NCBI GenBank assembly: GCA_030123605.1
Contig: CP126123.1
Coordinates: 806,001 to 870,000 of the forward strand
DNA from: Nitrospira sp.
Lineage (GTDB): Bacteria; Nitrospirota; Nitrospiria; Nitrospirales; Nitrospiraceae
Direction: 5' to 3'
Length of the DNA: 64,000 bases
Below, in pieces: positions 25,798 to 61,020 of this stretch; position 1 is the stretch's first letter; each line of letters starts with the position of its first letter. A program made the translations under genes and the position numbers. Under the pieces are notes generated by a model. That model ran no database searches. It saw only the letters and a program-made list of their open reading frames with translations, and had not been told where the DNA came from.

Positions 25798-25842
25798 GTC
25801 GCACAGCCTAGGGTCGAAGATCGCGTTCGAGCGTGAACCCCT

Positions 25843-25863
25843 GGATCAGTCGCCCGCTGATCC
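25843..25863. repeat. Hairpin between riboswitch terminator and cbiX
   Basis: GGATCAG and CTGATCC form a perfect 7-base stem with a 7-base loop. The same hairpin with one changed loop base occurs at the equivalent place in the second leader (35087-35105), so the leaders are homologous beyond the riboswitch itself. Confidence 0.6.
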
Positions 25864-25880
25864 ACGCAAAACGAGGGCAT

Positions 25881-25916
25881 AAAAAAACCTCCGGTTCCGC
25901 AACGGGAACAAGAGGT
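25881..25916 (-). terminator. Rho-independent terminator of cbi riboswitch
   Basis: Read on the minus strand, ACCTCTTGTTCC pairs with GGAACCGGAGGT around a CGTTGC loop and is followed by seven T. It lies 60 bases downstream of the aptamer and 84 bases before cbiX, as expected for transcriptional attenuation by cobalamin. Confidence 0.85.
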
Positions 25917-25978
25917 CACAACATGCCACGGGGGCAGGCGCACTCTCCGTTACCGCGCGGAGAAACAACAGCCGCATC

Positions 25979-26160
25979 GCCTCGGGTAGGTCTCCTGGCT
26001 CGTGAGTTCAGAAGGTCGAACCTTCTACGCGTTCCCTCAGCCTTCCTCAACACATCGTTGAGTGGCTGGAATCAGAGGGATCGCTTCTCACTTACAGTGG
26101 CGGGACCGCGCCGGTGTCGCACCGGACTTCCCTGTTATGCCCTTGCGGGCACCCGAGTGA
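25979..26160 (-). ncRNA. Cobalamin riboswitch of the cbi operon
   Basis: The minus strand carries the cobalamin aptamer core: GGGAAGTCCGGTG, then GCGGTCCCGCCACTGTAAG, and the distal B12 box AGCCAGGAGACCTACC. P1 pairs CTCGGGT (26157-26151) with ACCCGAG near 25981. A terminator follows, so high cobalamin would stop transcription of cbiX to cbiA. Confidence 0.93.
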
Positions 26161-26181
26161 CTCTTCACATTCGAATGACGG

Positions 26182-34860: not shown

Positions 34861-35123
34861 ACCTGTTAATGATGTGGGGTCCCTTTCATCGCGATGGGAC
34901 ACACCTGACCCGAGATGCGTCCTCTGTTGGCCATCACCGAGTCGGAAGACTTCGGCGCATCAATGAATTCAGCATGTCGAATTCGACGTGTGCATGCGCG
35001 CCGTATCGCCTTGTCCGACGACGGACAATCCGGCGCTTCTACCGCGCATGCTGTTCCGAACAATGATGTCGGGGCTTGGAGGCTGTGATCAGTCGCACGC
35101 TGATCCAGCAGGAACGAAGGCAT
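34861..35123. other. Spacer between tandem riboswitches, no gene seen
   Basis: This stretch inside the btuB leader has no credible gene. A 98-codon minus-strand frame crosses it but is low-complexity, lacks a ribosome site and has no recognisable domain. A hairpin (GATCAG/CTGATC, 35087-35105) copies the one ahead of cbiX. Confidence 0.5.
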
Positions 35124-35159
35124 AAAAAAACCTCTCATCCCGCAACGGGAACAAGAGGT
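35124..35159 (-). terminator. Rho-independent terminator of distal btuB riboswitch
   Basis: Read on the minus strand, ACCTCTTGTTCCCG pairs imperfectly with CGGGATGAGAGGT around a short loop and is followed by seven T. It is nearly identical to the terminator of the cbi leader. Confidence 0.85.
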
Positions 35160-35219
35160 CACATGCCGAGGAGGCAGGCGCCATCTCCGTTACCGCGCGG
35201 AGTGACAACACCCTGTCTG

Positions 35220-35400
35220 CTCGGGTAGGTCTCCTGGCTCATGAGTTCAGAAGGTCGGACCTTCAACACGCTCCCTCAACCTTCCTCAACGCATTCGGTT
35301 GAGCGGCTACAATCCGAGGGATCGCTTCTCACTTACAGTGGCGGGACCGCGCCGGTGTTACACCGGACTTCCCTGTTATGCCCTCACGGGCACCCGAGTG
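35220..35400 (-). ncRNA. Cobalamin riboswitch, distal in btuB leader
   Basis: The minus strand has GGGAAGTCCGGTGTAACACC, GCGGTCCCGCCACTGTAAG and AGCCAGGAGACCTACC. P1 pairs CTCGGGT with ACCCGAG (35220-35226). The aptamer, the terminator and the following hairpin are close copies of the cbi leader at 25843-26160. It is the first of two aptamers upstream of btuB. Confidence 0.92.
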
Positions 35401-35424
35401 ACGAATTGACGATCGAGCGCGGTT

Positions 35425-45153: not shown

Positions 45154-48100
45154 TTAGCGGGATATCTGAGCCAGTAGCGATGCCGGAGTCTCGCTCTGAC
45201 TATGCGCGATCACCTCCCGCAAAACCTCAGCATACGCTCCGACAACCGCTTCGATCGTTTTTTGTCGATAGCGTTCCCTGCTGTAGGTGAGGGATACTTC
45301 AAACTGTCCTCCTATGATCGCGCCGGCAAAGGTCAATTCGTGGCCCAGCCGATCCCGGCCATCGTGCGAACGTCCGGTCGATTCGGTGGCCGCCGCAAAC
45401 AGGCCGCCATCAGGAAGCGTTTGGTCGAATTGACCCAAATAGTTGAAACAGACTTCCGCGGCCGGCATGGAGCGAATCTGTCTCGACAGCACGCCACACG
45501 GCGGCAAATATTTCAGAATGCCATATCCAATTCCTCGATTGGGAACGAGGTGGAGCTGCTGCTTGACGGTCTGGACTGCTTCTTTCGGCAAGGCATCGGG
45601 TGCCACATCGAGCCACACGGGAAACAGTCCGGCAAACCAGCCGACCGTCCGCGAGACGTCGAGACCCGCAAAGATTTCCTCTCGTCCATGCCTATCCAGA
45701 TCCACCATCAGGCAGGAATGGCCCGTCCAGCGTCCTATGCTCTGAACCATCGCCGTCAACAGAACATCGATGATTTGCGATTGATACGCTCGGGGCACGT
45801 GCTGCAACAACGCCTGTGTTTCTGCTGCCGTTAACTCGACCGTCACCGTCACGGCAAGGTCCTCGGTCCTCTCTCCTTCGGGATAGTCAATGGGGATCCC
45901 TTGGGTCTGTGTCCATCGGCTATCCAACCAGTAGGTTGCATCCTGCGCCGGCGCCTCTGATTGGGCATACATCCGCAGCCGCTCCGCCCATTGTTTGTAC
46001 GAACTGGTCTTCGCCGGCATCTGAATGGCCTGTCCCTGCGTCACTTGCCGGAGAGCTGTTTGAAGATCCTCTGCCAAGATTCGCCACGAAACCCAATCCA
46101 CGACGGCATGGTGAATGATGATCAACAACCGTTGCGATCGGCCCATTCCTCGATCGAACAAAACGACCTGCAGCAATGGTCCCTTGTTCAGGTCGAGTCG
46201 CTGATGCCATTCGTCGGCCGATTCGGCCAACACCTGTTCATGCTCCGCCTCTGAAATCTGGGACAGATCCATACGATGGACGCCGACCTGCGGAACAGAT
46301 GGCTCGATCCACTGTCTCCATCCTCCTTCATCGCGTCTGAAACGCGCCCGCAGCATGTCATGCTGTCGCAACAACTGTTGGAACGCTGCTTCTACCGTAG
46401 CGACCGTGAGATTTTCCCGCAACTCCAGCAGGACAGCTTGGTTGTAGCGATGTGGATTCTGTATGTTCTGTTCGAAGAACCACTCTTGAATCGGCGTCAG
46501 GGGGATTTCTCCGCTCACCAACCCTTGCTCTGCTTGAATATCAGAATCCGCTTCCACTGCTGCCTTCCCTGCCAAGTCGGCAATCGTTTGATGCTCGATC
46601 AATTGCCGAGGAGACAACAGAATCCCGCTTTGGCGACATCGCGAGACAACCTGAATGCTCAAGATAGAATCCCCGCCCAACTCGAAGAAGTTGTCGTGGC
46701 GGCCGACCTGAGCCACCCCGAGCAGCTCCGCCCAGATCGTCGCCAACCGCGCTTCCGTCGGCGTCGCCGGCGGCGCATACGCCACGGGACGCGGCAGGTC
46801 CCCGGCCTCCGGGGCCGGCAGGGCCTTCCGGTCCACTTTGCCGTTCGGCGTGAGCGGCAGCTTGTCCAGCACCACGTACACCGCCGGCACCATATACTCC
46901 GGCAGCCGACGCCCCAGAAACTCCCGCACCGCCGCCACCGCCACCGGCGCGGTCGTCACCAGATACCCGACCAGACGCTTGGAGCCGGCCGGCTCCGCCC
47001 GCGCCACCACCACCGCTTGCCCGATGGCCGGATGTTCGCGCAGCCGCGCCTCGATCTCCCCCAGCTCGATCCGGACCCCCCGCACCTTCACCTGCTGATC
47101 CCGCCGCCCAAGAAATTCGAGGGTCCCGTCAGCCCGATAACGCCCCAGATCTCCCGTCCGGTACAGCCGCTGCCCTGGCTGCTCGCTGAACGGATGCGGC
47201 CCGAACGCCGCCGCCGTCCGCCCCGGCTCGCCGAGATACCCCCGCCCCACGCCCACGCCCCCGATCCAGAGCTCCCCCGTCACCCCCACCGGCACCGGCG
47301 CCAGATCCGCATTTAATACATACAGCTCCAGGTTGGCCGCCGGCCGCCCGATCGGCACCACCGTCTCCTCCGCCCCCGGCGCCCGCGTCAGGGGATAGTA
47401 CGCCACGTCGTCCGCACACTCGGCCGGCCCGTAGGCATTGAGCAACGGCACGGTCGGATACCGCGTCAACCACGCCCGGCAGAGCTCCGGCGTCACCGCC
47501 TCCCCCGTCGGCAACAACCACCGTAAGGCCGGGAGGGCCGGCGCTGGCTCCACCGCCACCACTTCCCGCAACAACGACGGCACCAGCTCCGCCACCGTCA
47601 CGCCCGTTCGGGCGAATTCGGCCAGCAACCGCACCGGCTCCTGCACGACGTCGTCGGACAGAATCTCCACCCGCCCCCCGCACAGTAACGCGCTCAGCCC
47701 TTGCCACACCGAGATGTCGAACCCGACGCCCGCGGTCTGTGCCACCACATCCCGGCTCGTCAGGCCCAGCACCGGGAGCTTTCCCCACACGTTGTTCACC
47801 ATCCCCTGCTGCGAAACCACCGCGCCTTTGGGCTGCCCCGTCGACCCCGACGTGAACAGCACATACCCCACTTGCTGCGGATGCGTCCGGCGCGGCGGCC
47901 GCGGGTACCGGCCCGCCGGCAACGACGCCCGCGTGGCCACCCGCAGGTCGGGCCGCTCCGCCACGAGGGGCTCGAGCCGATGGCGCTCCGCTTCCGTCGT
48001 CAGCACCTGCCGCACGTGGCCCTGCGTCAGCAGTTGCCCCCACCGCGCCGGTGGATGCGTCGGATCCAGCGGCAGATACCCCCCGCCCGCCTTCAGAATG

Positions 48101-51100
48101 CCCAGCAGCAGCGTGACCCACTCCACGCCCCGCGCCGCCAGCACCGCCACCACCGTATCGGGCCCCACGCCCGCCGCCACCAACCCCCCGGCCACCTGCG
48201 CCGCCCGCGCGTCCAGCTCCGCATAGGTCAGCGCCTCCGCCCCGCCTTGCACCGCCACCGCCGCCGGCGTCCGCGCGACCTGCGCCTCAAATAACTCCGC
48301 CACACTCTGCTCCGCCGGGTACGCCGCCCCCGTCTTATTCCACGTTGTTGTTATGGTCAGCCGCTCTTCTTCTGTCAGGAACGACAACTCCGACAGACGC
48401 GCAGGTGGTCGCGCCACCATCTGTTCCAAGAGAACCCTATAGTGCTCGACCATTCGGGCAATCATGTCGTCGTCGAAGAGATCCGTACTGTACTCCACCA
48501 ATCCGTTGAGTCCTTCCTGAGTCTCATTCAATTCCATTGAGAGATCAAATTTTGATGTCTTGTCTTCAATCGTCAGCGCTTCTATCGACAGGCCTGGAAT
48601 CTCCAAAGCCTCCATCGGCGCATTCTGAAATGTAAACATCACTTGAAACAGCGGACTATGGCCGAGAGAGCGGACCGGCTGTACAGCTTCGACGACCTTC
48701 TCAAACGGAACATCTTGATGGGCTTGGGCTCCAATCACCCGCTCCCGTACTCGTTGCAATAATGTCCGACATGATGGATTGTCGGACAAATCCGTCCGCA
48801 AGACGAGTGTGTTCACAAAGAATCCGATCAAACCTTCAATTTCCAACCTGGTCCGATTGGCAATTGGTACTCCGACACAGATGTCCTGTTGGCCGCTGTA
48901 TCGGGATAGGAGAATCTGAAACGCCGCCAACAGAGTCATGAACATCGTGGTACCCTCAGCTTGACTCAGAGCATGAAGTTGTTGAGTCAGGGGCGCCGAA
49001 AGCTGGAACGGAATGCGGGCGCCGCGATAGGTCTGCACGGCGGGACGCGGCCGAGTGGGAAGAGTAATGAGCGGCGGAATTCCCGCGAGTGTGCCCTTCC
49101 AGTAAGTCAGTTGTTGTTGAAGTACGGATCCCGACAGCCATTGCCGTTGCCAGAGCGCGAAATCCGCATACTGAATCGGCAACTCCGACAAGGATGATTG
49201 CGTTCCGTTCGTAAACGCCTTATAGAGGGCGACGGATTCCTTTACAAACAACCCCATCGACCAACCATCCGAGACAATATGATGCATGGTCAGCAGTAAC
49301 ACATGTTCATGTGACGCCAGATACAGCAACGTCGCACGAATCAGCGGACCTAGCGAGAGGTCAAACGGCCGCTTAGCCTCTTCAGCTACCGAACGCCGCA
49401 CCGCTCCCTCTCGCTCGTCTTTCGGGATTGTCGTCAAGTCGATCCTCATCAGAACGATCGTTGCCTCGTCTCCGATCACCTGTACGGGCCGGCTATCTCT
49501 CATCTCAAAGGTAGTGCGCAATACTTCATGGCGACGAATCATCTCTTGCAAGGCAGCCTGCAACGCCGCTGCATCAAGCGTTCCCTGAAGCCGAAACGCC
49601 GTCGCGATGTTATAGGTGGAACTATTTGGCTCCAGCTGATCCAAGTACCAGAGTCGCTCTTGTGCAAAAGAAAGCGGCACGCGATCAGTTCGTCGGGCAC
49701 GGATCAAGGCAGGCGCCCCTGCACTATCTCTGTCTGTACGAACGGGGTCCGTAGTTGCAGCTAATTGAGCTACTGTCGGTCCGTCGAATAACGCTCGAAG
49801 CGGTAACTCGATCTGAAAGGCTTTTCTCACGCGAGAGATCACCTGTGTCGCCAAGAGCGAATGTCCGCCCAACTCGAAGAAGTTGTCGTGGCGGCCGACC
49901 TGAGCCACCCCGAGCAGCTCCGCCCAGATCGTCGCCAACCGCGCTTCCGTCGGCGTCGCCGGCGGCGCATACGCCACGGGACGCGGCAGGTCCCCGGCCT
50001 CCGGGGCCGGCAGGGCCTTCCGGTCCACTTTGCCGTTCGGCGTGAGCGGCAGCTTGTCCAGCACCACGTACACCGCCGGCACCATATACTCCGGCAGCCG
50101 ACGCCCCAGAAACTCCCGCACCGCCGCCACCGCCACCGGCGCGGTCGTCACCAGATACCCGACCAGACGCTTGGAGCCGGCCGGCTCCGCCCGCGCCACC
50201 ACCACCGCTTGCCCGATGGCCGGATGTTCGCGCAGCCGCGCCTCGATCTCCCCCAGCTCGATCCGGACCCCCCGCACCTTCACCTGCTGATCCCGCCGCC
50301 CAAGAAATTCGAGGGTCCCGTCAGCCCGATAACGCCCCAGATCTCCCGTCCGGTACAGCCGCTGCCCTGGCTGCTCGCTGAACGGATGCGGCCCGAACGC
50401 CGCCGCCGTCCGCCCCGGCTCGCCGAGATACCCCCGCCCCACGCCCACGCCCCCGATCCAGAGCTCCCCCGTCACCCCCACCGGCACCGGCGCCAGATCC
50501 GCATTTAATACATACAGCTCCAGGTTGGCCGCCGGCCGCCCGATCGGCACCACCGTCTCCTCCGCCCCCGGCGCCCGCGTCAGGGGATAGTACGCCACGT
50601 CGTCCGCACACTCGGCCGGCCCGTAGGCATTGAGCAACGGCACGGTCGGATACCGCGTCAACCACGCCCGGCAGAGCTCCGGCGTCACCGCCTCCCCCGT
50701 CGGCAACAACCACCGTAAGGCCGGGAGGGCCGGCGCTGGCTCCACCGCCACCACTTCCCGCAACAACGACGGCACCAGCTCCGCCACCGTCACGCCCGTT
50801 CGGGCGAATTCGGCCAGCAACCGCACCGGCTCCTGCACGACGTCGTCGGACAGAATCTCCACCCGCCCCCCGCACAGTAACGCGCTCAGCCCTTGCCACA
50901 CCGAGATGTCGAACCCGACGCCCGCGGTCTGTGCCACCACATCCCGGCTCGTCAGGCCCAGCACCGGGAGCTTTCCCCACACGTTGTTCACCATCCCCTG
51001 CTGCGAAACCACCGCGCCTTTGGGCTGCCCCGTCGACCCCGACGTGAACAGCACATACCCCACTTGCTGCGGATGCGTCCGGCGCGGCAGCCGCGGGTAC

Positions 51101-52917
51101 CGGCCCGCCGGCAACGACGCCCGCGTGGCCACCCGCAGGTCGGGCCGCTCCGCCACGAGGGGCTCGAGCCGATGGCGCTCCGCTTCCGTCGTCAGCACCT
51201 GCCGCACGTGGCCCTGCGTCAGCAGTTGCCCCCACCGCGCCGGTGGATGCGTCGGATCCAGCGGCAGATACCCCCCGCCCGCCTTCAGAATGCCCAGCAG
51301 CAGCGTGACCCACTCCACGCCCCGCGCCGCCAGCACCGCCACCACCGTATCGGGCCCCACGCCCGCCGCCACCAACCCCCCGGCCACCTGCGCCGCCCGC
51401 GCGTCCAGCTCCGCATAGGTCAGCGCCTCCGCCCCGCCTTGCACCGCCACCGCCGCCGGCGTCCGCGCGACCTGCGCCTCAAATAACTCCGCCACACTCT
51501 GCTCCGCCGGGTACGCCGCCCCCGTCTTATTCCACGTCCGCGTCTGCTCACGCACCTCCGCGGCGCTCAGCACCGTCACCTCGCCCAGCCGCCGCCCCGG
51601 TCCCGCCACCAGCTGCTCCAGCACCCCCTGGAACTGCGCCAGCATCCGCCGTATCGTCGCCTCCTCACACTGCCGCCGATCGTAGGTCAACTGCAGCAAT
51701 AAGGCCTCCGTCGGAACCACGACGACGGTGAGCGGATAGTTCGTATGAGTGCGATTGCCTTGCTGTTCAATAGAAAATGGACTGGCATGATCTGTCAGAC
51801 TGGGATCACTGGGGGCGCTTTCGAAGACGAGGAGCGAATCGAAGAGCGCTCGCCCGCGTGGCACCTCACTCCAACTCTGAATCTGCACCAGCGGCGCATA
51901 CTCGTATTGCCGCAGCCGGAGATTCTGTGCAAAGAGCTCCTGCAGCCACGACACCACGTCCCGGTCGCCCGCCACCGTCACCCGCAGCGGCAGGCTGTTG
52001 ATGAACAGCCCCACCATGTCCTCCACCCCCGCCAACCCAGGCGGCCGCCCCGCCACCGTCACCCCGAACACCACCTCCGTCTCCCCGCTGTAGCGGCTCA
52101 AGAGCCAGGCCCACGCCCCCTGCACCAGCGTGTTGAGCGTCACCCGATGCCGCGTCGCCCACGCCTGGAGCGCCGCCGTCGTCTCCTCCGACAGCGTCAC
52201 CACCGCATCGGCCACCGGATCCGGCCCCCTCCACTCCGCCGGACGGTCCCGCAACACCCCCACCGGCGTCGGCACCGTGAACCCGCGCAACTGCTCCCGC
52301 CAAAACCCTTCCGCCTCCTGCATGTCCTGCTGCTGCAGCCACGCAATGTACTCGCGGTACGGCCGCGGCTTCGGCACCGCCAGCGGCCGCCCCGCCACGA
52401 GCGCCTCGTAAAACCGAAAGAAATCCACCATCAGCACCGAAAAGCACCAGGCGTCCATCAAGATCAGATGATAGCTGCGCGTGATCCGATACGTCGTCGC
52501 TCCCGTCCGGATCAGCCGCAGCCGCAGCAACGGCACCTTCCCCAAGTCGAACCCCGTCGCCAACTCCTGCGCCAGCACCTCCTCCACCCCCTGCGCCTGC
52601 GCCGCGGCCGACCGGTCCCGCCAATCCAGATATTCCAACGGCACCGCCACCTGCTTGTGCACCACCTGCAACGGCCGCTTCTGCCGCTCCCACACAAACG
52701 CCGTCCGCAGCACCCCATGCCGGTCCATCACCTGCTGCCACGCTTGCCGAAACGCCGCCACGTCCAGCGGCCCGTCCCACCCATACCGGTCCTGCATCAG
52801 GTACATCCCCGAGCCCGGCTCCAGCAGCGTATGAAACAACAACCCCTCCTGCATCGGCGACAACGGATAGATGTCCTCAATATTCGCCGACGCCTGCTTC
52901 GTCTGAGTCTCAGTCAT
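45154..52917 (-). CDS. NRPS, C-A-T-C-A-T-E (two Dab-type modules)
   Basis: This is the last synthetase of the chain, 2587 residues. Domains by residue: C 15-450 (starts IYPLSPMQEGLLFHTL, DCL type, motif YHLILMDAW), A 470-960, T 985-1050 (FFELGGHSLL), C 1070-1510 (VPLSFAQERLWYLDQL, LCL type, MHHIVSDGWS), A 1535-2025, T 2050-2115 (FFELGGDSIL), E-like 2140-2587. Both A domains give the ten-residue code DIWELTADDK, which I recall for 2,4-diaminobutyrate. The E-like domain is altered: HHAVVDW for HHxxxDG and DRHGRE for EGHGRE. There is no thioesterase. The start ATG lies 62 bases after the preceding NRPS gene. Confidence 0.93.
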   Translation of the reverse strand: MTETQTKQASANIEDIYPLSPMQEGLLFHTLLEPGSGMYLMQDRYGWDGPLDVAAFRQAWQQVMDRHGVLRTAFVWERQKRPLQVVHKQVAVPLEYLDWRDRSAAAQAQGVEEVLAQELATGFDLGKVPLLRLRLIRTGATTYRITRSYHLILMDAWCFSVLMVDFFRFYEALVAGRPLAVPKPRPYREYIAWLQQQDMQEAEGFWREQLRGFTVPTPVGVLRDRPAEWRGPDPVADAVVTLSEETTAALQAWATRHRVTLNTLVQGAWAWLLSRYSGETEVVFGVTVAGRPPGLAGVEDMVGLFINSLPLRVTVAGDRDVVSWLQELFAQNLRLRQYEYAPLVQIQSWSEVPRGRALFDSLLVFESAPSDPSLTDHASPFSIEQQGNRTHTNYPLTVVVVPTEALLLQLTYDRRQCEEATIRRMLAQFQGVLEQLVAGPGRRLGEVTVLSAAEVREQTRTWNKTGAAYPAEQSVAELFEAQVARTPAAVAVQGGAEALTYAELDARAAQVAGGLVAAGVGPDTVVAVLAARGVEWVTLLLGILKAGGGYLPLDPTHPPARWGQLLTQGHVRQVLTTEAERHRLEPLVAERPDLRVATRASLPAGRYPRLPRRTHPQQVGYVLFTSGSTGQPKGAVVSQQGMVNNVWGKLPVLGLTSRDVVAQTAGVGFDISVWQGLSALLCGGRVEILSDDVVQEPVRLLAEFARTGVTVAELVPSLLREVVAVEPAPALPALRWLLPTGEAVTPELCRAWLTRYPTVPLLNAYGPAECADDVAYYPLTRAPGAEETVVPIGRPAANLELYVLNADLAPVPVGVTGELWIGGVGVGRGYLGEPGRTAAAFGPHPFSEQPGQRLYRTGDLGRYRADGTLEFLGRRDQQVKVRGVRIELGEIEARLREHPAIGQAVVVARAEPAGSKRLVGYLVTTAPVAVAAVREFLGRRLPEYMVPAVYVVLDKLPLTPNGKVDRKALPAPEAGDLPRPVAYAPPATPTEARLATIWAELLGVAQVGRHDNFFELGGHSLLATQVISRVRKAFQIELPLRALFDGPTVAQLAATTDPVRTDRDSAGAPALIRARRTDRVPLSFAQERLWYLDQLEPNSSTYNIATAFRLQGTLDAAALQAALQEMIRRHEVLRTTFEMRDSRPVQVIGDEATIVLMRIDLTTIPKDEREGAVRRSVAEEAKRPFDLSLGPLIRATLLYLASHEHVLLLTMHHIVSDGWSMGLFVKESVALYKAFTNGTQSSLSELPIQYADFALWQRQWLSGSVLQQQLTYWKGTLAGIPPLITLPTRPRPAVQTYRGARIPFQLSAPLTQQLHALSQAEGTTMFMTLLAAFQILLSRYSGQQDICVGVPIANRTRLEIEGLIGFFVNTLVLRTDLSDNPSCRTLLQRVRERVIGAQAHQDVPFEKVVEAVQPVRSLGHSPLFQVMFTFQNAPMEALEIPGLSIEALTIEDKTSKFDLSMELNETQEGLNGLVEYSTDLFDDDMIARMVEHYRVLLEQMVARPPARLSELSFLTEEERLTITTTWNKTGAAYPAEQSVAELFEAQVARTPAAVAVQGGAEALTYAELDARAAQVAGGLVAAGVGPDTVVAVLAARGVEWVTLLLGILKAGGGYLPLDPTHPPARWGQLLTQGHVRQVLTTEAERHRLEPLVAERPDLRVATRASLPAGRYPRPPRRTHPQQVGYVLFTSGSTGQPKGAVVSQQGMVNNVWGKLPVLGLTSRDVVAQTAGVGFDISVWQGLSALLCGGRVEILSDDVVQEPVRLLAEFARTGVTVAELVPSLLREVVAVEPAPALPALRWLLPTGEAVTPELCRAWLTRYPTVPLLNAYGPAECADDVAYYPLTRAPGAEETVVPIGRPAANLELYVLNADLAPVPVGVTGELWIGGVGVGRGYLGEPGRTAAAFGPHPFSEQPGQRLYRTGDLGRYRADGTLEFLGRRDQQVKVRGVRIELGEIEARLREHPAIGQAVVVARAEPAGSKRLVGYLVTTAPVAVAAVREFLGRRLPEYMVPAVYVVLDKLPLTPNGKVDRKALPAPEAGDLPRPVAYAPPATPTEARLATIWAELLGVAQVGRHDNFFELGGDSILSIQVVSRCRQSGILLSPRQLIEHQTIADLAGKAAVEADSDIQAEQGLVSGEIPLTPIQEWFFEQNIQNPHRYNQAVLLELRENLTVATVEAAFQQLLRQHDMLRARFRRDEGGWRQWIEPSVPQVGVHRMDLSQISEAEHEQVLAESADEWHQRLDLNKGPLLQVVLFDRGMGRSQRLLIIIHHAVVDWVSWRILAEDLQTALRQVTQGQAIQMPAKTSSYKQWAERLRMYAQSEAPAQDATYWLDSRWTQTQGIPIDYPEGERTEDLAVTVTVELTAAETQALLQHVPRAYQSQIIDVLLTAMVQSIGRWTGHSCLMVDLDRHGREEIFAGLDVSRTVGWFAGLFPVWLDVAPDALPKEAVQTVKQQLHLVPNRGIGYGILKYLPPCGVLSRQIRSMPAAEVCFNYLGQFDQTLPDGGLFAAATESTGRSHDGRDRLGHELTFAGAIIGGQFEVSLTYSRERYRQKTIEAVVGAYAEVLREVIAHSQSETPASLLAQISR
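46673..48345 (-). repeat. Near-identical A-T repeat, copy 1
   Basis: This 1673-base block spans the second A domain and the start of the second T domain of the last NRPS. It is nearly identical to 49865-51537 and 57945-59617. Across all three, the encoded proteins differ at only two positions that I could see (Leu/Pro in RYPRxPRRTH and Lys/Glu in TWNxTGA). Confidence 0.9.
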
Positions 52918-52940
52918 GGGCTTATCCTATCTCGTTCAAT
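49850..52940 (-). repeat. Near-identical C-A-T repeat, copy in last NRPS gene
   Basis: The 3091-base block matches 57930-61020 at a constant offset of 8080 bases with no indel. Identity is broken only by a divergent patch near 51689-51815 (C-to-A linker). It extends past the start codon into the intergenic gap, and that extension carries TTGAACGAGATAGGATAA, the last codons and stop of the NRPS gene at 61002-64000. Confidence 0.92.
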
Positions 52941-52979
52941 CGAGTGATCGGTCGACGGGATGTAGTCGGCATCATGTCC

Positions 52980-55900
52980 TCATTGAATGTCTTCAAGAAT
53001 GTGATTCAGCGCCTCCGGGCTGAGCTCGACGTCCGGGAAATCCGCCGGCGTATACCCGGCCGCCTCCCCCGCCAGACACTCTCGGATCAGTGTGCGAAGC
53101 GCCTGCTCATACCGTTCGCCCAGCGCCGCCATCGTGGCTCGGCGGTACCGGCGCCCGCTGTATCCCCACAGGACGTGCAGCCGGCCGTCGAGAATATGGG
53201 CGTTGATGTCCCACTCATACGGCAGTCGGCTCCCCGCCGCCTGGTTGGGGCCCACGGACTCCGGTGCCGGACGCACCGGCGCCTCCGGCGGAAACGTCTG
53301 GTCCAATTGCCCCAAGTAGTTGAAGCTCACCGGCGCGGGCGGCTGCGCGGCCAGATGGCGCCGGACCTCGGGATCTCCGCCGCCGTAGCGCAGCAGCCCA
53401 TAGCCGAGCCCCTTGTGCGGGAGCCGCCGCACCCGGGCTTTCACCGCCGCCAGCACGGCCCCCGGCGTCGCACCGGGCGCCACCCGCACCACGACCGGAT
53501 AGACCGTCGTGAACCACCCGACCGTCCGCGACACATCGAGCTCGGGAAATACGTCTTCCCGGCCGTGCCCCTCCAGATCAAACGCCACCACCGCGCTCCC
53601 GCTCCACTCGCTCAGCACCTGAACCAGCGCCGCGAGCAGCACCTCGTGCAGCTGGGTGCGCGCCGCCGCCGGCACCGCCTGCACCAGTTGACGCGTCGTC
53701 TCTGCGTCCACCGACACCGTGACGATCTCGGCGTCCGCCTCGGTCGCCGCCCCCTGCGGGTCCTCGACCGGAATGGCCCAGGCGGCCGCTGGCTCAATGG
53801 CCAGCCAAGAGGCCGCCTCCGCCTGGAGCGCTGCCGAGTGACTGTAGGCGTGCAACTGCGTCGCCCACGCTTGAAAGGAACTGCTCGTCGGCAGCCGCAC
53901 CGGTGCCTGGGTGGTGAGCGCCTGATAGGCCGTCATCAGGTCCTCCAGCAGAATCCGCCAGGAGATGCCGTCCACCACCAAGTGATGGATGACCAACAGC
54001 AGGCGCGCGGTCTGCGCCGGCCCGCGGGTGAACAGCACCGCCCGGACCACCGGCCCTGTCGTCAGATCGAGCCGCGCCTGCCGGTCGGTCGCCGCCGCCT
54101 CCAACGCCTGGGCTTGCTCGGCCACCGGAACGGCCGCAAGATCGACATACTCCACGGTCACCGCCGCTGCCTCGGCCGCATAGGCTTGTCGCCAGCCGTC
54201 GGCCGTCGGCGTAAACCGCAGCCGGAAGGCGTCATGATGGGCCAGCACCGCCTGCACCGCGTGCTCGAGCCGACGCAGGTCGACCGCCGGTTGAACCGCT
54301 AACAACACCGCTTGATTGTAGTAATGGGGATTCGCCACGCCTTGCGCAAAGAAGTCCTGCTGGATCGGCGTCAGCGGCACCGCCCCCTGCACCGGCCCTT
54401 CTCGTTCGGCCTCCGCCGGCTTGCCCGTGCTCACCGCCGCCAGCGCCGCCACCGTCTGATGTTGAAACAACTGCCGCGGCGTCACTCGGATCCCTCGCTC
54501 GCGCGCCTGAGCAATGACTTGGATGCTGAGAATGGAATCCCCCCCCAACTCGAAGAAATTGTCGTGAATCCCCACACGCTCCACTCTCAAAACCTGCCGC
54601 CAGATCGCCGCCAGCGTGGTCTCGAACTCCGTTCGCGGCGCTACATACAGACGGGCTTCCCCCCCCCCGGCCTCCGGGGCCGGCAGGGCCTTCCGGTCCA
54701 CTTTGCCGTTCGGCGTGAGCGGCAGCTTGTCCAGCACCACGTACACCGCCGGCACCATATACTCCGGCAGCCGACGCCCCAGAAACTCCCGCACCGCCGC
54801 CACCGCCACCGGCGCGGTCGTCACCAGGTACCCGACCAGACGCTTGGAGCCGGCCGGCTCCGCCCGCGCCACCACCACCGCTTGCCCGATGGCCGGATGT
54901 TCGCGCAGCCGCGCCTCGATCTCCCCCAGCTCGATCCGAAACCCCCGCACCTTCACCTGCTGATCCCGCCGCCCAAGAAATTCAAGGGTCCCGTCAGCCC
55001 GATAACGCCCCAGATCCCCCGTCCGGTACAGCCGCTGCCCTGGCTGCTCGCTGAACGGATGCGGCCCGAACGCCGCCGCCGTGAGGTTCGGCCGATTCAA
55101 ATAGCCTCGCGCCAACCCTGTGCCCGCAATGTACAGTTCTCCCACCGCCCCGAGGGGGACCGGCTGCAGATCAGAATCGAGAACGTACAGCTCGACATTG
55201 GCAATGGGCCGGCCAATCGGGACGGTACTCATTGGAAGCCAATCCGTCCTCGAATCGGGGGCGTACACGCTGGCCGTAACTGTCGTCTCAGTCGGTCCAT
55301 ACGCATTGCACCAACCGATCGCATCACTCGCGATGCGCCGCCATCGCCGCACGTCGTCCACCGCTGCCTTTTCACTTCCGGCAACGACGAGACGGAGGGC
55401 AGGCGGCATCGCTGCGTCGGTATGTTCAATGTGCCCGATCCATCCTGCCCAGTAAGGTGTCGGAAGATTGAGCACCGTGATGTTTGTCTCTCGAATGAAA
55501 GCGTGAAAGTCTGAATAGGTCTCCGTCGACTCAGATGACCGCAAGACGACTGTCGCGCCGGTTAACCAGGTCGGAATACATTCTTCGATCAAGACATCGA
55601 AACTGATGGACGAAAATTGCAGCACACGATCGTCAGGGCTCAGGCCATACATCGTGACCATGGCCATCCCATGGTTCACCAACGACCGGTGGGTCACGCT
55701 GATTCCCTTAGGCCGTCCCGTGGAGCCTGAGGTATAGATCACATAGGCCAGCTGCTCAGGCTGGCCGACGGGGACGAGATTCATGCACGCGTATGTTGCA
55801 ATCACTTCCCACTGACTATCCAGACAGAGTATCGACATATCCCTGGCCGGTATCGTGGCTTGTAGATGAGCTTGCGTGAGCACGATCGCCGGCCGGCTGT

Positions 55901-57704
55901 CGACAAGCATGTACGCTAATCGCTCTGTTGGGTAATGAGGATCCAACGGAACATACGCACCCCCGGCCTTGAGAATGCCGAGTAGGCCGATGACCATTTC
56001 CAGCGAACGTTCCACATAGAGTCCTACCAAGACATCCGGCCCGACGCCCTGTTCTCGCAGATACCGTGCGAGCTGATTCGCACGGGCGTTCAGTTCCTCA
56101 TATGTCACCTGCTGGTGGTCAGACTTCACCGCTACCGCCGTCGGCGTGCGCGCGACCTGTGCCTCGAACAATTGGGAGATCGTCTGCGTGGTCGGATAGT
56201 CCGTCTCTGTCGTATTCCATTCCTTCAACACCTGCCGCAGTTCGGTTCCGGTGAGCATCGGCAGTTCCGCGATACGGGCCTGCGGACCGACGACAATCGC
56301 CTCAAGCAGGATCCGAAAATGTTCGGCCATCCGGGCGATGGTTTCTCCGTCAAACAGAGCCGTGCTGTATTGAAATTCTCCGCTGAGTCGGCCACCCCTT
56401 TCGGTCATATCCAGACATAGATCGAAGGGGGCGCTTTTCTCCTTCATGTCGACCGGATAAAACTCTAACCCCGAAACCTGGATGCCCTGTCTGGGAACAT
56501 TGTGGAGCACGAACATCACCTGAAACAGAGGGGAATAGGCAAGATCGCGAGTGGGTTGCAACTCATCGAGCAACTTTTCAAACGGAATGTCTTGGTGGGA
56601 TTGGGCTTCCAAGGAAGCTTCTCGAACGTTCGCCAAATGTTCCACGAATGTCGGATCGCCTGTCAGATCGGCACGCAATACCAATGTGTTGACAAAGAAC
56701 CCGATGAGATTTTCGACTTCGGGTCTGGTTCGGTTCGCCAGCGGAGTGCCGATACAAAACTGCTTCTGGTCCGAATAGCGAGACAACAGAACTTCGAAGG
56801 CAGCCAAGAGGGTCATGAATAAGGTCACGCCCTGCTTTCGGCTGAATTCGCTCAGCTGGACGGTAAGGGACTCCGTCAGTGTGAACGGAACGTCGTCTCC
56901 TTGATACGTCTGTACGGATGGCCTCGGCCGATCAGTCGGGAGCTTGAGGATCGTCGGCACTCCCCGAAGCTTGTCTTTCCAGTACGTCAGTTGCTTCTCC
57001 AGTATGGTCGAGGAAAGCCGCTGTCTCTGCCAGACTGCATAATCCGCGTATTGGACACCATCCTCCGGCAAGGCGACCGGCGTTCCATCCGTGAAGGATT
57101 GATACGAAGCCGCCAATTCACGGAACAGTAGACCCATCGACCAATCATCCGTGACGATGTGGTGCATGGTCAGCAAGAGCACATACCGCCGGTCTTCCAA
57201 TCTCAGCAGCATCGAGCGAAAGAGGGGCCCCTTCGTCAAGTCAAAGGGCTGCTGAAATTCTTGGGTCATGAGACGTTGGAGTTCGCTCTCCTGCGCCACG
57301 CCTCCAAGCCTCCGTAAGTCAACGTGCTTGATCGCTAGCGGAGAGTAAGCCATCGCAGTCTGCACAGGCTGCCCGTTGTTTTCGGTAATGACACTGCGTA
57401 GTGATTCGTGTCGGAGGAGAATGGCGTCGATACTCTGTTGCAGAGCCGTGAGATTCAACGCTCCGGAAATTCCGAACGCAACCGGCACATTATAGAAGTG
57501 GCTGTTCGGTTCCAGCTGGTCCAAGAACCACAAACGTTGTTGTGCAAAGGACAACGGCGCCGGCTCGTGCGGACGAGACCGTCGGCAAATCCTGTCGGAA
57601 TCCGCACTCTCGTTGACCTTTCCTTCGAGCAACTTTTGCAGCAAGGCTTTCTTCGCCGCCGACAGTTCCGGACGATCGGCGGCGCGCTTCTTCTGTTCCA
57701 ACAT
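52980..57704 (-). CDS. NRPS, C-A-T-E (unassigned residue, epimerised)
   Basis: This synthetase has 1574 residues. An N-terminal helix (ELSAAKKALLQKLLEG) precedes C at 45-480 (APLSFAQQRLWFLDQL, LCL type, MHHIVTDDWS). A is at 505-1000, T at 1025-1090 (FFELGGDSIL) and E at 1105-1560 with intact IHHLVVDGISW, EGHGRE and SFNYLGQ. The A code reads DVENVAAVTK. Glu at the third position is shared with lysine/ornithine-type codes, so a basic or N-modified ornithine-like residue is possible, but I cannot assign it firmly. The small C-terminal subdomain of A is nearly identical to that of the Dab modules although the core is not, so A is chimeric. A ribosome site (AGGAGAGAG) precedes the ATG. Confidence 0.92.
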   Translation of the reverse strand: MLEQKKRAADRPELSAAKKALLQKLLEGKVNESADSDRICRRSRPHEPAPLSFAQQRLWFLDQLEPNSHFYNVPVAFGISGALNLTALQQSIDAILLRHESLRSVITENNGQPVQTAMAYSPLAIKHVDLRRLGGVAQESELQRLMTQEFQQPFDLTKGPLFRSMLLRLEDRRYVLLLTMHHIVTDDWSMGLLFRELAASYQSFTDGTPVALPEDGVQYADYAVWQRQRLSSTILEKQLTYWKDKLRGVPTILKLPTDRPRPSVQTYQGDDVPFTLTESLTVQLSEFSRKQGVTLFMTLLAAFEVLLSRYSDQKQFCIGTPLANRTRPEVENLIGFFVNTLVLRADLTGDPTFVEHLANVREASLEAQSHQDIPFEKLLDELQPTRDLAYSPLFQVMFVLHNVPRQGIQVSGLEFYPVDMKEKSAPFDLCLDMTERGGRLSGEFQYSTALFDGETIARMAEHFRILLEAIVVGPQARIAELPMLTGTELRQVLKEWNTTETDYPTTQTISQLFEAQVARTPTAVAVKSDHQQVTYEELNARANQLARYLREQGVGPDVLVGLYVERSLEMVIGLLGILKAGGAYVPLDPHYPTERLAYMLVDSRPAIVLTQAHLQATIPARDMSILCLDSQWEVIATYACMNLVPVGQPEQLAYVIYTSGSTGRPKGISVTHRSLVNHGMAMVTMYGLSPDDRVLQFSSISFDVLIEECIPTWLTGATVVLRSSESTETYSDFHAFIRETNITVLNLPTPYWAGWIGHIEHTDAAMPPALRLVVAGSEKAAVDDVRRWRRIASDAIGWCNAYGPTETTVTASVYAPDSRTDWLPMSTVPIGRPIANVELYVLDSDLQPVPLGAVGELYIAGTGLARGYLNRPNLTAAAFGPHPFSEQPGQRLYRTGDLGRYRADGTLEFLGRRDQQVKVRGFRIELGEIEARLREHPAIGQAVVVARAEPAGSKRLVGYLVTTAPVAVAAVREFLGRRLPEYMVPAVYVVLDKLPLTPNGKVDRKALPAPEAGGGEARLYVAPRTEFETTLAAIWRQVLRVERVGIHDNFFELGGDSILSIQVIAQARERGIRVTPRQLFQHQTVAALAAVSTGKPAEAEREGPVQGAVPLTPIQQDFFAQGVANPHYYNQAVLLAVQPAVDLRRLEHAVQAVLAHHDAFRLRFTPTADGWRQAYAAEAAAVTVEYVDLAAVPVAEQAQALEAAATDRQARLDLTTGPVVRAVLFTRGPAQTARLLLVIHHLVVDGISWRILLEDLMTAYQALTTQAPVRLPTSSSFQAWATQLHAYSHSAALQAEAASWLAIEPAAAWAIPVEDPQGAATEADAEIVTVSVDAETTRQLVQAVPAAARTQLHEVLLAALVQVLSEWSGSAVVAFDLEGHGREDVFPELDVSRTVGWFTTVYPVVVRVAPGATPGAVLAAVKARVRRLPHKGLGYGLLRYGGGDPEVRRHLAAQPPAPVSFNYLGQLDQTFPPEAPVRPAPESVGPNQAAGSRLPYEWDINAHILDGRLHVLWGYSGRRYRRATMAALGERYEQALRTLIRECLAGEAAGYTPADFPDVELSPEALNHILEDIQ
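54666..55082 (-). repeat. Shared A-domain C-terminal subdomain block
   Basis: These 417 bases align without gaps to 46801-47217 (and the other Dab copies) with about five substitutions seen. The match begins at the A-to-T linker (PAPEAG) and ends abruptly within TAAAFGPH, after which the A core is unrelated. It marks a recombination boundary inside the A domain. Confidence 0.88.
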
Positions 57705-57745
57705 ATCTCTCTCCTACGGGAATGTATGGGGATCGGGCTCGAGGC

Positions 57746-60700
57746 TCAGAGAACTGGCGACTCATCCGCTAGAAGTCGCTCCGCTTCACTCTCCGAAAGC
57801 ACTTCCAGTTGTCTGGTCAATGACTCTTCAATGAGATCCGCTAATCCCGCTACTGTGGAGGCTTCGAAGAGGTCCCGCAACGCAAGTTCGGTTCTGAAAT
57901 GCTTTCGTACCCGCGACATCAGTTGCACAGCCAAGAGCGAATGTCCGCCCAACTCGAAGAAGTTGTCGTGGCGGCCGACCTGAGCCACCCCGAGCAGCTC
58001 CGCCCAGATCGTCGCCAACCGCGCTTCCGTCGGCGTCGCCGGCGGCGCATACGCCACGGGACGCGGCAGGTCCCCGGCCTCCGGGGCCGGCAGGGCCTTC
58101 CGGTCCACTTTGCCGTTCGGCGTGAGCGGCAGCTTGTCCAGCACCACGTACACCGCCGGCACCATATACTCCGGCAGCCGACGCCCCAGAAACTCCCGCA
58201 CCGCCGCCACCGCCACCGGCGCGGTCGTCACCAGATACCCGACCAGACGCTTGGAGCCGGCCGGCTCCGCCCGCGCCACCACCACCGCTTGCCCGATGGC
58301 CGGATGTTCGCGCAGCCGCGCCTCGATCTCCCCCAGCTCGATCCGGACCCCCCGCACCTTCACCTGCTGATCCCGCCGCCCAAGAAATTCGAGGGTCCCG
58401 TCAGCCCGATAACGCCCCAGATCTCCCGTCCGGTACAGCCGCTGCCCTGGCTGCTCGCTGAACGGATGCGGCCCGAACGCCGCCGCCGTCCGCCCCGGCT
58501 CGCCGAGATACCCCCGCCCCACGCCCACGCCCCCGATCCAGAGCTCCCCCGTCACCCCCACCGGCACCGGCGCCAGATCCGCATTTAATACATACAGCTC
58601 CAGGTTGGCCGCCGGCCGCCCGATCGGCACCACCGTCTCCTCCGCCCCCGGCGCCCGCGTCAGGGGATAGTACGCCACGTCGTCCGCACACTCGGCCGGC
58701 CCGTAGGCATTGAGCAACGGCACGGTCGGATACCGCGTCAACCACGCCCGGCAGAGCTCCGGCGTCACCGCCTCCCCCGTCGGCAACAACCACCGTAAGG
58801 CCGGGAGGGCCGGCGCTGGCTCCACCGCCACCACTTCCCGCAACAACGACGGCACCAGCTCCGCCACCGTCACGCCCGTTCGGGCGAATTCGGCCAGCAA
58901 CCGCACCGGCTCCTGCACGACGTCGTCGGACAGAATCTCCACCCGCCCCCCGCACAGTAACGCGCTCAGCCCTTGCCACACCGAGATGTCGAACCCGACG
59001 CCCGCGGTCTGTGCCACCACATCCCGGCTCGTCAGGCCCAGCACCGGGAGCTTTCCCCACACGTTGTTCACCATCCCCTGCTGCGAAACCACCGCGCCTT
59101 TGGGCTGCCCCGTCGACCCCGACGTGAACAGCACATACCCCACTTGCTGCGGATGCGTCCGGCGCGGCGGCCGCGGGTACCGGCCCGCCGGCAACGACGC
59201 CCGCGTGGCCACCCGCAGGTCGGGCCGCTCCGCCACGAGGGGCTCGAGCCGATGGCGCTCCGCTTCCGTCGTCAGCACCTGCCGCACGTGGCCCTGCGTC
59301 AGCAGTTGCCCCCACCGCGCCGGTGGATGCGTCGGATCCAGCGGCAGATACCCCCCGCCCGCCTTCAGAATGCCCAGCAGCAGCGTGACCCACTCCACGC
59401 CCCGCGCCGCCAGCACCGCCACCACCGTATCGGGCCCCACGCCCGCCGCCACCAACCCCCCGGCCACCTGCGCCGCCCGCGCGTCCAGCTCCGCATAGGT
59501 CAGCGCCTCCGCCCCGCCTTGCACCGCCACCGCCGCCGGCGTCCGCGCGACCTGCGCCTCAAATAACTCCGCCACACTCTGCTCCGCCGGGTACGCCGCC
59601 CCCGTCTCATTCCACGTCCGCGTCTGCTCACGCACCTCCGCGGCGCTCAGCACCGTCACCTCGCCCAGCCGCCGCCCCGGTCCCGCCACCAGCTGCTCCA
59701 GCACCCCCTGGAACTGCGCCAGCATCCGCCGTATCGTCGCCTCCTCACACTGCCGCCGATCGTAGGTCAACTGCAGTTCCAGCGCCTTCAGAGGAACGAT
59801 CACGACGGTCAGCGGATAGTTCGTATGGGTACGATCTCCCTCTTGGCAGACGCGAAACGGAAGATTCTGATTCGTGAGAGACGAATCGACCGGAAGGTTT
59901 TCGAAGACGAGGAGCGAATCGAAGAGCGCTCGCCCGCGCGGCACCTCACTCCAACTCTGAATCTGCACCAGCGGCGCATACTCGTATTGCCGCAGCCGGA
60001 GATTCTGTGCAAAGAGCTCCTGCAGCCACGACACCACGTCCCGGTCGCCCGCCACCGTCACCCGCAGCGGCAGGCTGTTGATGAACAGCCCCACCATGTC
60101 CTCCACCCCCGCCAACCCAGGCGGCCGCCCCGCCACCGTCACCCCGAACACCACCTCCGTCTCCCCGCTGTAGCGGCTCAAGAGCCAGGCCCACGCCCCC
60201 TGCACCAGCGTGTTGAGCGTCACCCGATGCCGCGTCGCCCACGCCTGGAGCGCCGCCGTCGTCTCCTCCGACAGCGTCACCACCGCATCGGCCACCGGAT
60301 CCGGCCCCCTCCACTCCGCCGGACGGTCCCGCAACACCCCCACCGGCGTCGGCACCGTGAACCCGCGCAACTGCTCCCGCCAAAACCCTTCCGCCTCCTG
60401 CATGTCCTGCTGCTGCAGCCACGCAATGTACTCGCGGTACGGCCGCGGCTTCGGCACCGCCAGCGGCCGCCCCGCCACGAGCGCCTCGTAAAACCGAAAG
60501 AAATCCACCATCAGCACCGAAAAGCACCAGGCGTCCATCAAGATCAGATGATAGCTGCGCGTGATCCGATACGTCGTCGCTCCCGTCCGGATCAGCCGCA
60601 GCCGCAGCAACGGCACCTTCCCCAAGTCGAACCCCGTCGCCAACTCCTGCGCCAGCACCTCCTCCACCCCCTGCGCCTGCGCCGCGGCCGACCGGTCCCG

Positions 60701-60997
60701 CCAATCCAGATATTCCAACGGCACCGCCACCTGCTTGTGCACCACCTGCAACGGCCGCTTCTGCCGCTCCCACACAAACGCCGTCCGCAGCACCCCATGC
60801 CGGTCCATCACCTGCTGCCACGCTTGCCGAAACGCCGCCACGTCCAGCGGCCCGTCCCACCCATACCGGTCCTGCATCAGGTACATCCCCGAGCCCGGCT
60901 CCAGCAGCGTATGAAACAACAACCCCTCCTGCATCGGCGACAACGGATAGATGTCCTCAATATTCGCCGACGCCTGCTTCGTCTGAGTCTCAGTCAT
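57746..60997 (-). CDS. NRPS, C-A-T (Dab-type module)
   Basis: This 1083-residue synthetase has C 15-450 (DCL type, same YHLILMDAW motif), A 470-960 with code DIWELTADDK (2,4-diaminobutyrate by recall) and T 985-1055 (FFELGGHSLLAVQL). Its C-terminal tail is acidic (LSESEAERLLADESPVL) and may dock with the next synthetase. It has no E domain, so its residue should stay L, which matches the LCL domain that follows. The start is 4 bases after the preceding NRPS stop and the next gene begins 41 bases on. Most of it is a near copy of the first module of the NRPS at 45154-52917. Confidence 0.93.
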   Translation of the reverse strand: MTETQTKQASANIEDIYPLSPMQEGLLFHTLLEPGSGMYLMQDRYGWDGPLDVAAFRQAWQQVMDRHGVLRTAFVWERQKRPLQVVHKQVAVPLEYLDWRDRSAAAQAQGVEEVLAQELATGFDLGKVPLLRLRLIRTGATTYRITRSYHLILMDAWCFSVLMVDFFRFYEALVAGRPLAVPKPRPYREYIAWLQQQDMQEAEGFWREQLRGFTVPTPVGVLRDRPAEWRGPDPVADAVVTLSEETTAALQAWATRHRVTLNTLVQGAWAWLLSRYSGETEVVFGVTVAGRPPGLAGVEDMVGLFINSLPLRVTVAGDRDVVSWLQELFAQNLRLRQYEYAPLVQIQSWSEVPRGRALFDSLLVFENLPVDSSLTNQNLPFRVCQEGDRTHTNYPLTVVIVPLKALELQLTYDRRQCEEATIRRMLAQFQGVLEQLVAGPGRRLGEVTVLSAAEVREQTRTWNETGAAYPAEQSVAELFEAQVARTPAAVAVQGGAEALTYAELDARAAQVAGGLVAAGVGPDTVVAVLAARGVEWVTLLLGILKAGGGYLPLDPTHPPARWGQLLTQGHVRQVLTTEAERHRLEPLVAERPDLRVATRASLPAGRYPRPPRRTHPQQVGYVLFTSGSTGQPKGAVVSQQGMVNNVWGKLPVLGLTSRDVVAQTAGVGFDISVWQGLSALLCGGRVEILSDDVVQEPVRLLAEFARTGVTVAELVPSLLREVVAVEPAPALPALRWLLPTGEAVTPELCRAWLTRYPTVPLLNAYGPAECADDVAYYPLTRAPGAEETVVPIGRPAANLELYVLNADLAPVPVGVTGELWIGGVGVGRGYLGEPGRTAAAFGPHPFSEQPGQRLYRTGDLGRYRADGTLEFLGRRDQQVKVRGVRIELGEIEARLREHPAIGQAVVVARAEPAGSKRLVGYLVTTAPVAVAAVREFLGRRLPEYMVPAVYVVLDKLPLTPNGKVDRKALPAPEAGDLPRPVAYAPPATPTEARLATIWAELLGVAQVGRHDNFFELGGHSLLAVQLMSRVRKHFRTELALRDLFEASTVAGLADLIEESLTRQLEVLSESEAERLLADESPVL

Positions 60998-61020
60998 GGG
61001 CTTATCCTATCTCGTTCAAT
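57930..61020 (-). repeat. Near-identical C-A-T repeat, copy in third NRPS gene
   Basis: This partner of 49850-52940 includes the true 3' end of the upstream NRPS gene (its final LNEIG and stop). That makes this locus the likely donor. It has much higher C/G bias than the flanking NRPS DNA. Confidence 0.92.

Follow-up and report, generated by a model that had tools for sequence, protein, structure and literature searches.

How the same 3.1-kb module of a non-ribosomal peptide synthetase (NRPS) came to stand twice in one operon of Nitrospira sp., in which direction it was copied and what the copying did to the assembly line were the questions raised by this locus. The window analyzed here is the whole stretch of 64,000 nucleotides (GenBank assembly GCA_030123605.1, contig CP126123.1, positions 806,001 to 870,000 of the forward strand). 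Positions are those of the window unless prefixed C1, and the NRPS genes, all on the minus strand, were numbered gene0 to gene4. For comparison, the relative ACE_NIT12 was used, whose genes are marked with a prime.

Organization of the NRPS cluster

The NRPS genes and the copied features within them were listed in Table 1. The genes were separated by at most 4 bp or overlapped as far as gene2, and the gaps thereafter were 41 and 62 bp. No thioesterase was found in gene4 by Pfam, and the gene terminated in an E domain, unlike gene4' of ACE_NIT12, which terminated in a thioesterase. A stand-alone thioesterase was encoded upstream in the cluster.

Table 1. Coordinates of the NRPS genes, the copied tracts and the fossil gene
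Feature	Position	Strand	Basis or remark
gene0, first of five NRPS genes in order	outside the window, end at C1:871683	minus	
gene1, NRPS C-A-T-E, 1565 aa	61002..64000, ATG at C1:871678 past the window edge	minus	source of the fossil
gene2, NRPS C-A-T, 1083 aa	57746..60997	minus	ORF list
gene3, NRPS C-A-T-E, 1574 aa	52980..57704	minus	ORF list
gene4, last NRPS, C-A-T-C-A-T-E, 2587 aa	45154..52917	minus	ORF; Pfam
Tract X source: last codons of gene1, gene2	57930..61020	minus	offset alignment
Tract X recipient: gene4 ribosome-binding site, docking head, C, A, T start	49850..52940	minus	offset alignment
Un-homogenized 122-bp island within the C domain	51697..51818	minus	GC3 0.54 and 0.61 in the two copies
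Tract Y recipient: gene3 A-sub, T, E, docking tail, stop	52952..55082	minus	self-comparison of the cluster
44-bp segment of the live gene0/gene1 junction, with gene0 stop and gene1 start	52952..52995	minus	exact match, reaching back into the gene3 end
Partial A-domain copy (A-sub), common with four full copies	54665..55082	minus	self-BLAST
A-domain tract, third copy, in gene4 module 2; 99.7% to gene2	46660..48345	minus	self-BLAST
In-frame 17-codon ORF, collapsed gene1 copy	52922..52975	minus	gap sequence
Fossil gene1 3' end and spacer, including AGGA	52918..52940	minus	offset alignment

The neighbors encoded a FAAL-like start, a TauD dioxygenase, a Penicil_amidase with a weak PvdQ match, TonB receptors, an ECF sigma factor and FecR. 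An acyl start, a hydroxylase/acylase, a TonB receptor and FecI/FecR-type regulators, the gene content by which siderophore clusters were recognized, were all present, and on this content the cluster fits a candidate siderophore NRPS pathway. No paper was found for the A-domain binding-pocket code read by eye, DIWELTADDK. At L015:7895-14291 (C1:883895-890291), the start gene, of 1913 aa, had a second A domain that appeared to be split over two genes, with the core in the start gene and the A-sub and T parts in the following 217-aa gene; about 310 aa past the core of the split domain were without any Pfam family match, and genes with the same lengths and order were seen in ACE_NIT12. Outside the NRPS genes, the window contained a further direct repeat (25841-26161 and 35083-35402), with units of about 325 bp that were 87% identical.

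Two copied tracts in the NRPS genes

The 3.1-kb repeat, here tract X (49850-52940 and 57930-61020), was aligned base by base at an offset of 8080, and the match without indels that the earlier note had claimed was borne out, with exact ends at 49850 and 52940. Over 3,091 bp, 54 mismatches were counted; a single 122-bp island accounted for 51, and the three outside it lay at 51089 (P/L), 51528 (E/K) and 51859 (synonymous). Within the island the copies were 59% identical, a divergence as deep as the split from ACE_NIT12. Quartet counts on the island, meant to tell an old gene4 remnant from a gene2 remnant, stood at 5 against 6 sites, and a search for its donor elsewhere in the genome found none. 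The island may have escaped conversion or may derive from an old paralogue.

The second tract, Y, matched the 3' part of gene3 and part of the gap after it to the 3' end of gene0 (C1:871654-873785, 99.7% identity), and its source there comprised A-sub, T, E and the stop of gene0 together with the start of gene1. Across 52952-54827 no difference was found, and five fell within the A-sub part. On the source side, the E domain of gene0 grouped with that of gene0' (support 0.94) at an identity of only 40%, and the tail motif P.DFPDV was common to both.

In addition, the A domains of gene0 module 2, gene2 and gene4 modules 1 and 2 had only 2 variable sites in about 1,545 bp among the four copies, the one in gene0 lying just outside the window. 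The A domain of gene0' was of another kind, and therefore the gene0 copy here was probably overwritten. The 122-bp island, tract Y with the start of gene1 in the gap, and the A-domain copies at 46660-48345, just outside the window and, in part, at 54665-55082 had escaped the earlier note.

A fossil of gene1 between gene3 and gene4

Tracts X and Y abutted within the gap between gene3 and gene4. From one end to the other, the gap comprised 44 bp shared with the live gene0/gene1 junction, an 11-bp scar and 23 bp shared with the live gene1/gene2 junction; both ends of gene1 were exact, its interior was gone and the flanks were copied from the live locus. An ORF of 17 codons, MMPTTSRRPITRLNEIG followed by a stop, retained the first 8 and the last 5 codons of gene1. 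The 18-mer TTGAACGAGATAGGATAA, the in-frame end of gene1 with its stop at 61002, recurred before gene4 at 52922-52939; both its coding role and its repetition ahead of the last NRPS had been recognized before, with the second position given one base off.

The 13 bp across the scar (CCGTCGACCGATC) recurred near the 3' end of gene1, and a match of this length was reached in only 3 of 2000 codon-shuffled versions of gene1. Seven bases of CCGTCGACCGATC were also present at the gene1 start. Based on this recurrence at the two ends of the gene, loss of the gene1 copy by a microhomology deletion is likely; the remaining 5 bp of the scar fall outside that account.

The relic had been called useless, which is doubtful. 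AGGA was found inside it, 7 nt before the ATG of gene4, and the same sequence serves gene2; the in-frame 17-codon ORF carries the fossil gene1 start. Because it holds the ribosome-binding site of gene4, the relic is probably not useless, and we infer that the 17-codon ORF may keep the translation of gene3 and gene4 coupled.

Direction of copying and order of events

The order of the cluster in ACE_NIT12 was gene0'-gene1'-gene2'-gene3'-gene4', and the C-terminal end of gene1 read ...LSDEELHDLLKEIG and stop in ACE_NIT12 against ...LTDDELHDLLNEIG and stop here. Given this homologous end of gene1', the 18-mer is native to gene1 as coding sequence, which makes the copy ahead of gene4 the derived one. 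Gene order and gene1' end in the relative therefore supported the direction that had been proposed from the relic alone, with the gene1/gene2 junction as source and the front of gene4 as target. A similar gene3/gene4 junction was found in none of 29 genomes of the genus, nor was a close strain without the duplication found; the pre-event state was taken from this relative, at about 60% identity. In ACE_NIT12 a gene1-like A-T-E unit, with an A domain 81% identical to that of its gene1', lay directly before gene4', and therefore a gene1-type module at that place is not peculiar to this genome. The arrangement in ACE_NIT12 reads as an older, parallel copying of the same neighbor pair to the same place.

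It is quite probable that a block running from the 3' end of gene0 through gene1 to the 5' part of gene2 was copied onto the gene3/gene4 junction, that the gene1 copy collapsed, and that the copies were homogenized by conversion. As we infer the sequence of events, the block would have extended from A-sub-T-E of gene0 via gene1 to C-A-T of gene2 and would have been laid over the junction. One deletion or more, for which the 7-bp repeat was probably the guide, would then have reduced the gene1 copy to the 17-codon ORF. Repeated gene conversion would keep the A domains near identical, and here it would act likewise on one C domain and one T-E unit. The age reflected in the high identity of the copies is that of the most recent conversion and not that of the first duplication. 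The module duplication of the earlier note is thus real, although it was not a simple one-off event and belongs to a larger mosaic, with the loss of a gene1 copy and with copies that conversion keeps alike.

Concerted evolution of the A domains

The A-tract tree was compared with the C and T trees for seven genomes together with this genome and ACE_NIT12. Trees of the C and A domains paired gene2 with gene4 inside each of the latter two genomes. In six of the seven, five from the genus (G004, G006, G010, G023 and G024) and one from the order (G057), the A tracts of two modules, about 1.7 kb long, were 99.7-100% identical within the genome and mostly 72-85% identical between genomes. The C domains of the same two modules were about 45% identical within a genome and grouped by position between genomes. 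The seventh, G015, had an unsynchronized A pair (about 80%). The tract ends lay close to two motifs, WN.T in the C-A linker and LGG(D/H)S in the T domain. Paralogous A domains clustered by genome and the domains flanking them by position, a pattern that these trees identify as concerted evolution.

Two side observations were made. Three near-identical A tracts (99.2-99.7%) were present in the cluster of G004 (L112-L113), and one of the three sat in a third module at a different place. In ACE_NIT12 (L105-L106), the A-T-E of gene1' had 84% DNA identity to gene3' module 2, and gene2' had 74% to gene4'.

Docking ends and possible product routes

As a result of the two tracts, gene3 now has the docking tail of gene0 and gene4 the docking head of gene2. 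The product could be made by any of three routes: along a simple linear line, along a line that branches at gene1 towards gene4, or with a re-use of gene1, which would act in trans between gene3 and gene4.

The branched line, in which gene1 would pass its chain either to gene2 or straight to gene4 and give a long and a short product, is compatible with the best explanation of origin, and we regard it as a somewhat unlikely possibility. The N-termini of gene2 and gene4 were identical over the whole docking region, which gives the two acceptors a shared docking head as in a bifurcated line; there is precedent for one in which the acceptors are duplicated (PMC9205934). Docking ends of the COM type are promiscuous, and swaps between them have led to skipping (PMC9113145). 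Against a branch of the wollamide type, where the specificities differ, the A domains of gene2 and of gene4 module 1 had identical binding-pocket residues, so there was no neofunctionalization.

More doubtful is the use of one gene1 enzyme twice, in the chain gene0-gene1-gene2-gene3-gene1-gene4, in which gene1 would act in trans for its deleted copy. This route is suggested because the natural partner of the gene0 tail is gene1 and the natural partner of the gene2 head is the gene1 tail. The gene1-like A-T-E of ACE_NIT12 sits exactly where re-use would place gene1. If the route is true, deletion of the gene1 copy costs the product nothing.

GC content of the tracts

GC-biased gene conversion in bacteria is debated, and the evidence for it is mostly statistical. 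In the cluster, the tracts had 69-73% GC, compared with about 56-60% in the surroundings, and elsewhere in the window every 1.5-kb stretch stayed at or below 64.4%. GC3 was 0.864 in the tracts and 0.664 outside; when the tract mask was shifted circularly, only 6 of all 13,008 positions reached this difference. GC3 fell from 0.88 to 0.48 where tract X ends in the T domain, and the step was small at some of the other edges (Y left, source Y low). Raised silent-site GC was thus confined to the converting tracts.

Across genomes, GC3 was higher in homogenized A domains (n = 16) than in the others (n = 65), with p = 2e-8, where the domains are not independent. In the other genomes GC4 was 0.93-0.98 in homogenized A domains and 0.64-0.88 in most unconverted ones, with exceptions at 0.91-0.98 in single or paired A domains of G015, G018, G019 and G029. 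In G018 and G029 (L126, L116-L117), single A domains had GC4 of 0.97-0.98 and no twin was detected in the stretch retrieved; they may have a twin elsewhere or may have been converted in the past.

Parsimony on fourfold sites gave an equilibrium of 0.89 in the tracts against 0.68-0.70 in the flanks, from few events, and a simulation indicated that such parsimony should still recover about 0.9. Parsimony on all sites gave equilibrium GC of 0.50-0.59 in the tracts and 0.42-0.63 in the flanks, with no rise in the tracts. From composition, we lean slightly towards a GC-biased conversion of the tracts. The main alternative to such a bias is the reversed causality, in which GC-rich DNA might recombine more readily.

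The contrast between the tracts and the cluster would also be expected if a high-GC NRPS module had recently been imported and then duplicated, its GC being that of the donor and not a product of conversion. We regard this as improbable. The nearest relatives of gene2 were from Nitrospira, and their orthologous C domain had GC3 near 0.5; the unconverted 122-bp island inside the tract was low in GC in both copies. Elsewhere, 32-49% of the fourfold sites in the tracts differed between species, about three quarters or more of them by G/C swaps, and GC4 nevertheless held at 0.92-0.99 across species, including one with a cluster at about 0.65. This turnover at constant GC4 argues against old foreign GC and, unlike the parsimony on all sites, would favor a high GC that is an equilibrium.

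Discussion

Near-identical repeats of 1.5-3.1 kb within one cluster are a classic source of assembly trouble, and a chimeric join or a collapsed repeat could in principle have made the identical stretches. In this case an artefact is very unlikely: the genome was assembled as one contig of 4.316 Mb, the copies differed by their island sequences and had distinct flanks, homogenized A tracts of the same size were found in six other genomes, and the 11-mer of the scar occurred once in the 76 kb checked and could not have been made by any repeat join. Least credible of all is the reverse polarity, with an ancestral gene3/gene4 junction and gene1 inserted into a copy of it, because, although sequence identity is equal in both directions, ACE_NIT12 has gene1 with a homologous C-terminus between gene0 and gene2, and the fossil has both gene1 ends in frame, which an insertion would have to match by chance.

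The proposed copying of the gene0-gene1-gene2 block, followed by conversion, can be set beside several known systems. In the concerted evolution of PKS and NRPS clusters (Medema et al. 2014, PMC4256081), domains of the same cluster are likewise closer than positional counterparts in sister clusters, and internal recombination has been reported in calcium-dependent lipopeptide NRPSs, for their A domains and for most of their C domains (PMC4256081). What differs here is that the tract ends are base-sharp, the copies are 99-100% identical with steps of composition at the edges, and the same module pair was homogenized in several genomes. The wollamide/desotamide NRPS (Booth et al. 2022, PMC9205934) resembles this locus in gene duplication, intragenomic A-domain recombination and duplicated acceptor docking ends; there the duplicate gained a new specificity, whereas here the A domain was unchanged, the intervening gene1 copy was lost and an in-frame fossil was left. 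In A-domain substitution of pyoverdine and other NRPSs (Calcott et al. 2020, PMC7486941), A domains are also transferred whole, and the breakpoints lie in the region of the C-A linker, but the movement observed here homogenizes modules instead of diversifying them and often stops at the LGG(D/H)S motif of the T domain. The module loss of nostopeptolide and minutumamide (PMC12184294) is similar in that lost modules reshape the line and docking ends are adjusted; in our case the two ends of the lost gene are still readable. Recombining sequence was also higher in GC in the work on GC-biased conversion in bacteria by Lassalle et al. (2015, PMC4450053), which is a statistical association over genes of many species, in contrast to the tract-sharp steps within one operon and the unconverted internal control described here.

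One operon contains repeatedly converted stretches, unconverted neighbors and an unconverted internal island of 122 bp, with composition that shifts at the edges, and since the same kind of module pair is present in other genomes of the group, the question of GC bias becomes directly testable. The fossil is a recorded intermediate in the evolution of an assembly line, in which a module was lost and its docking ends remain. Such module loss with kept docking ends matters for the prediction of NRPS products from gene order.
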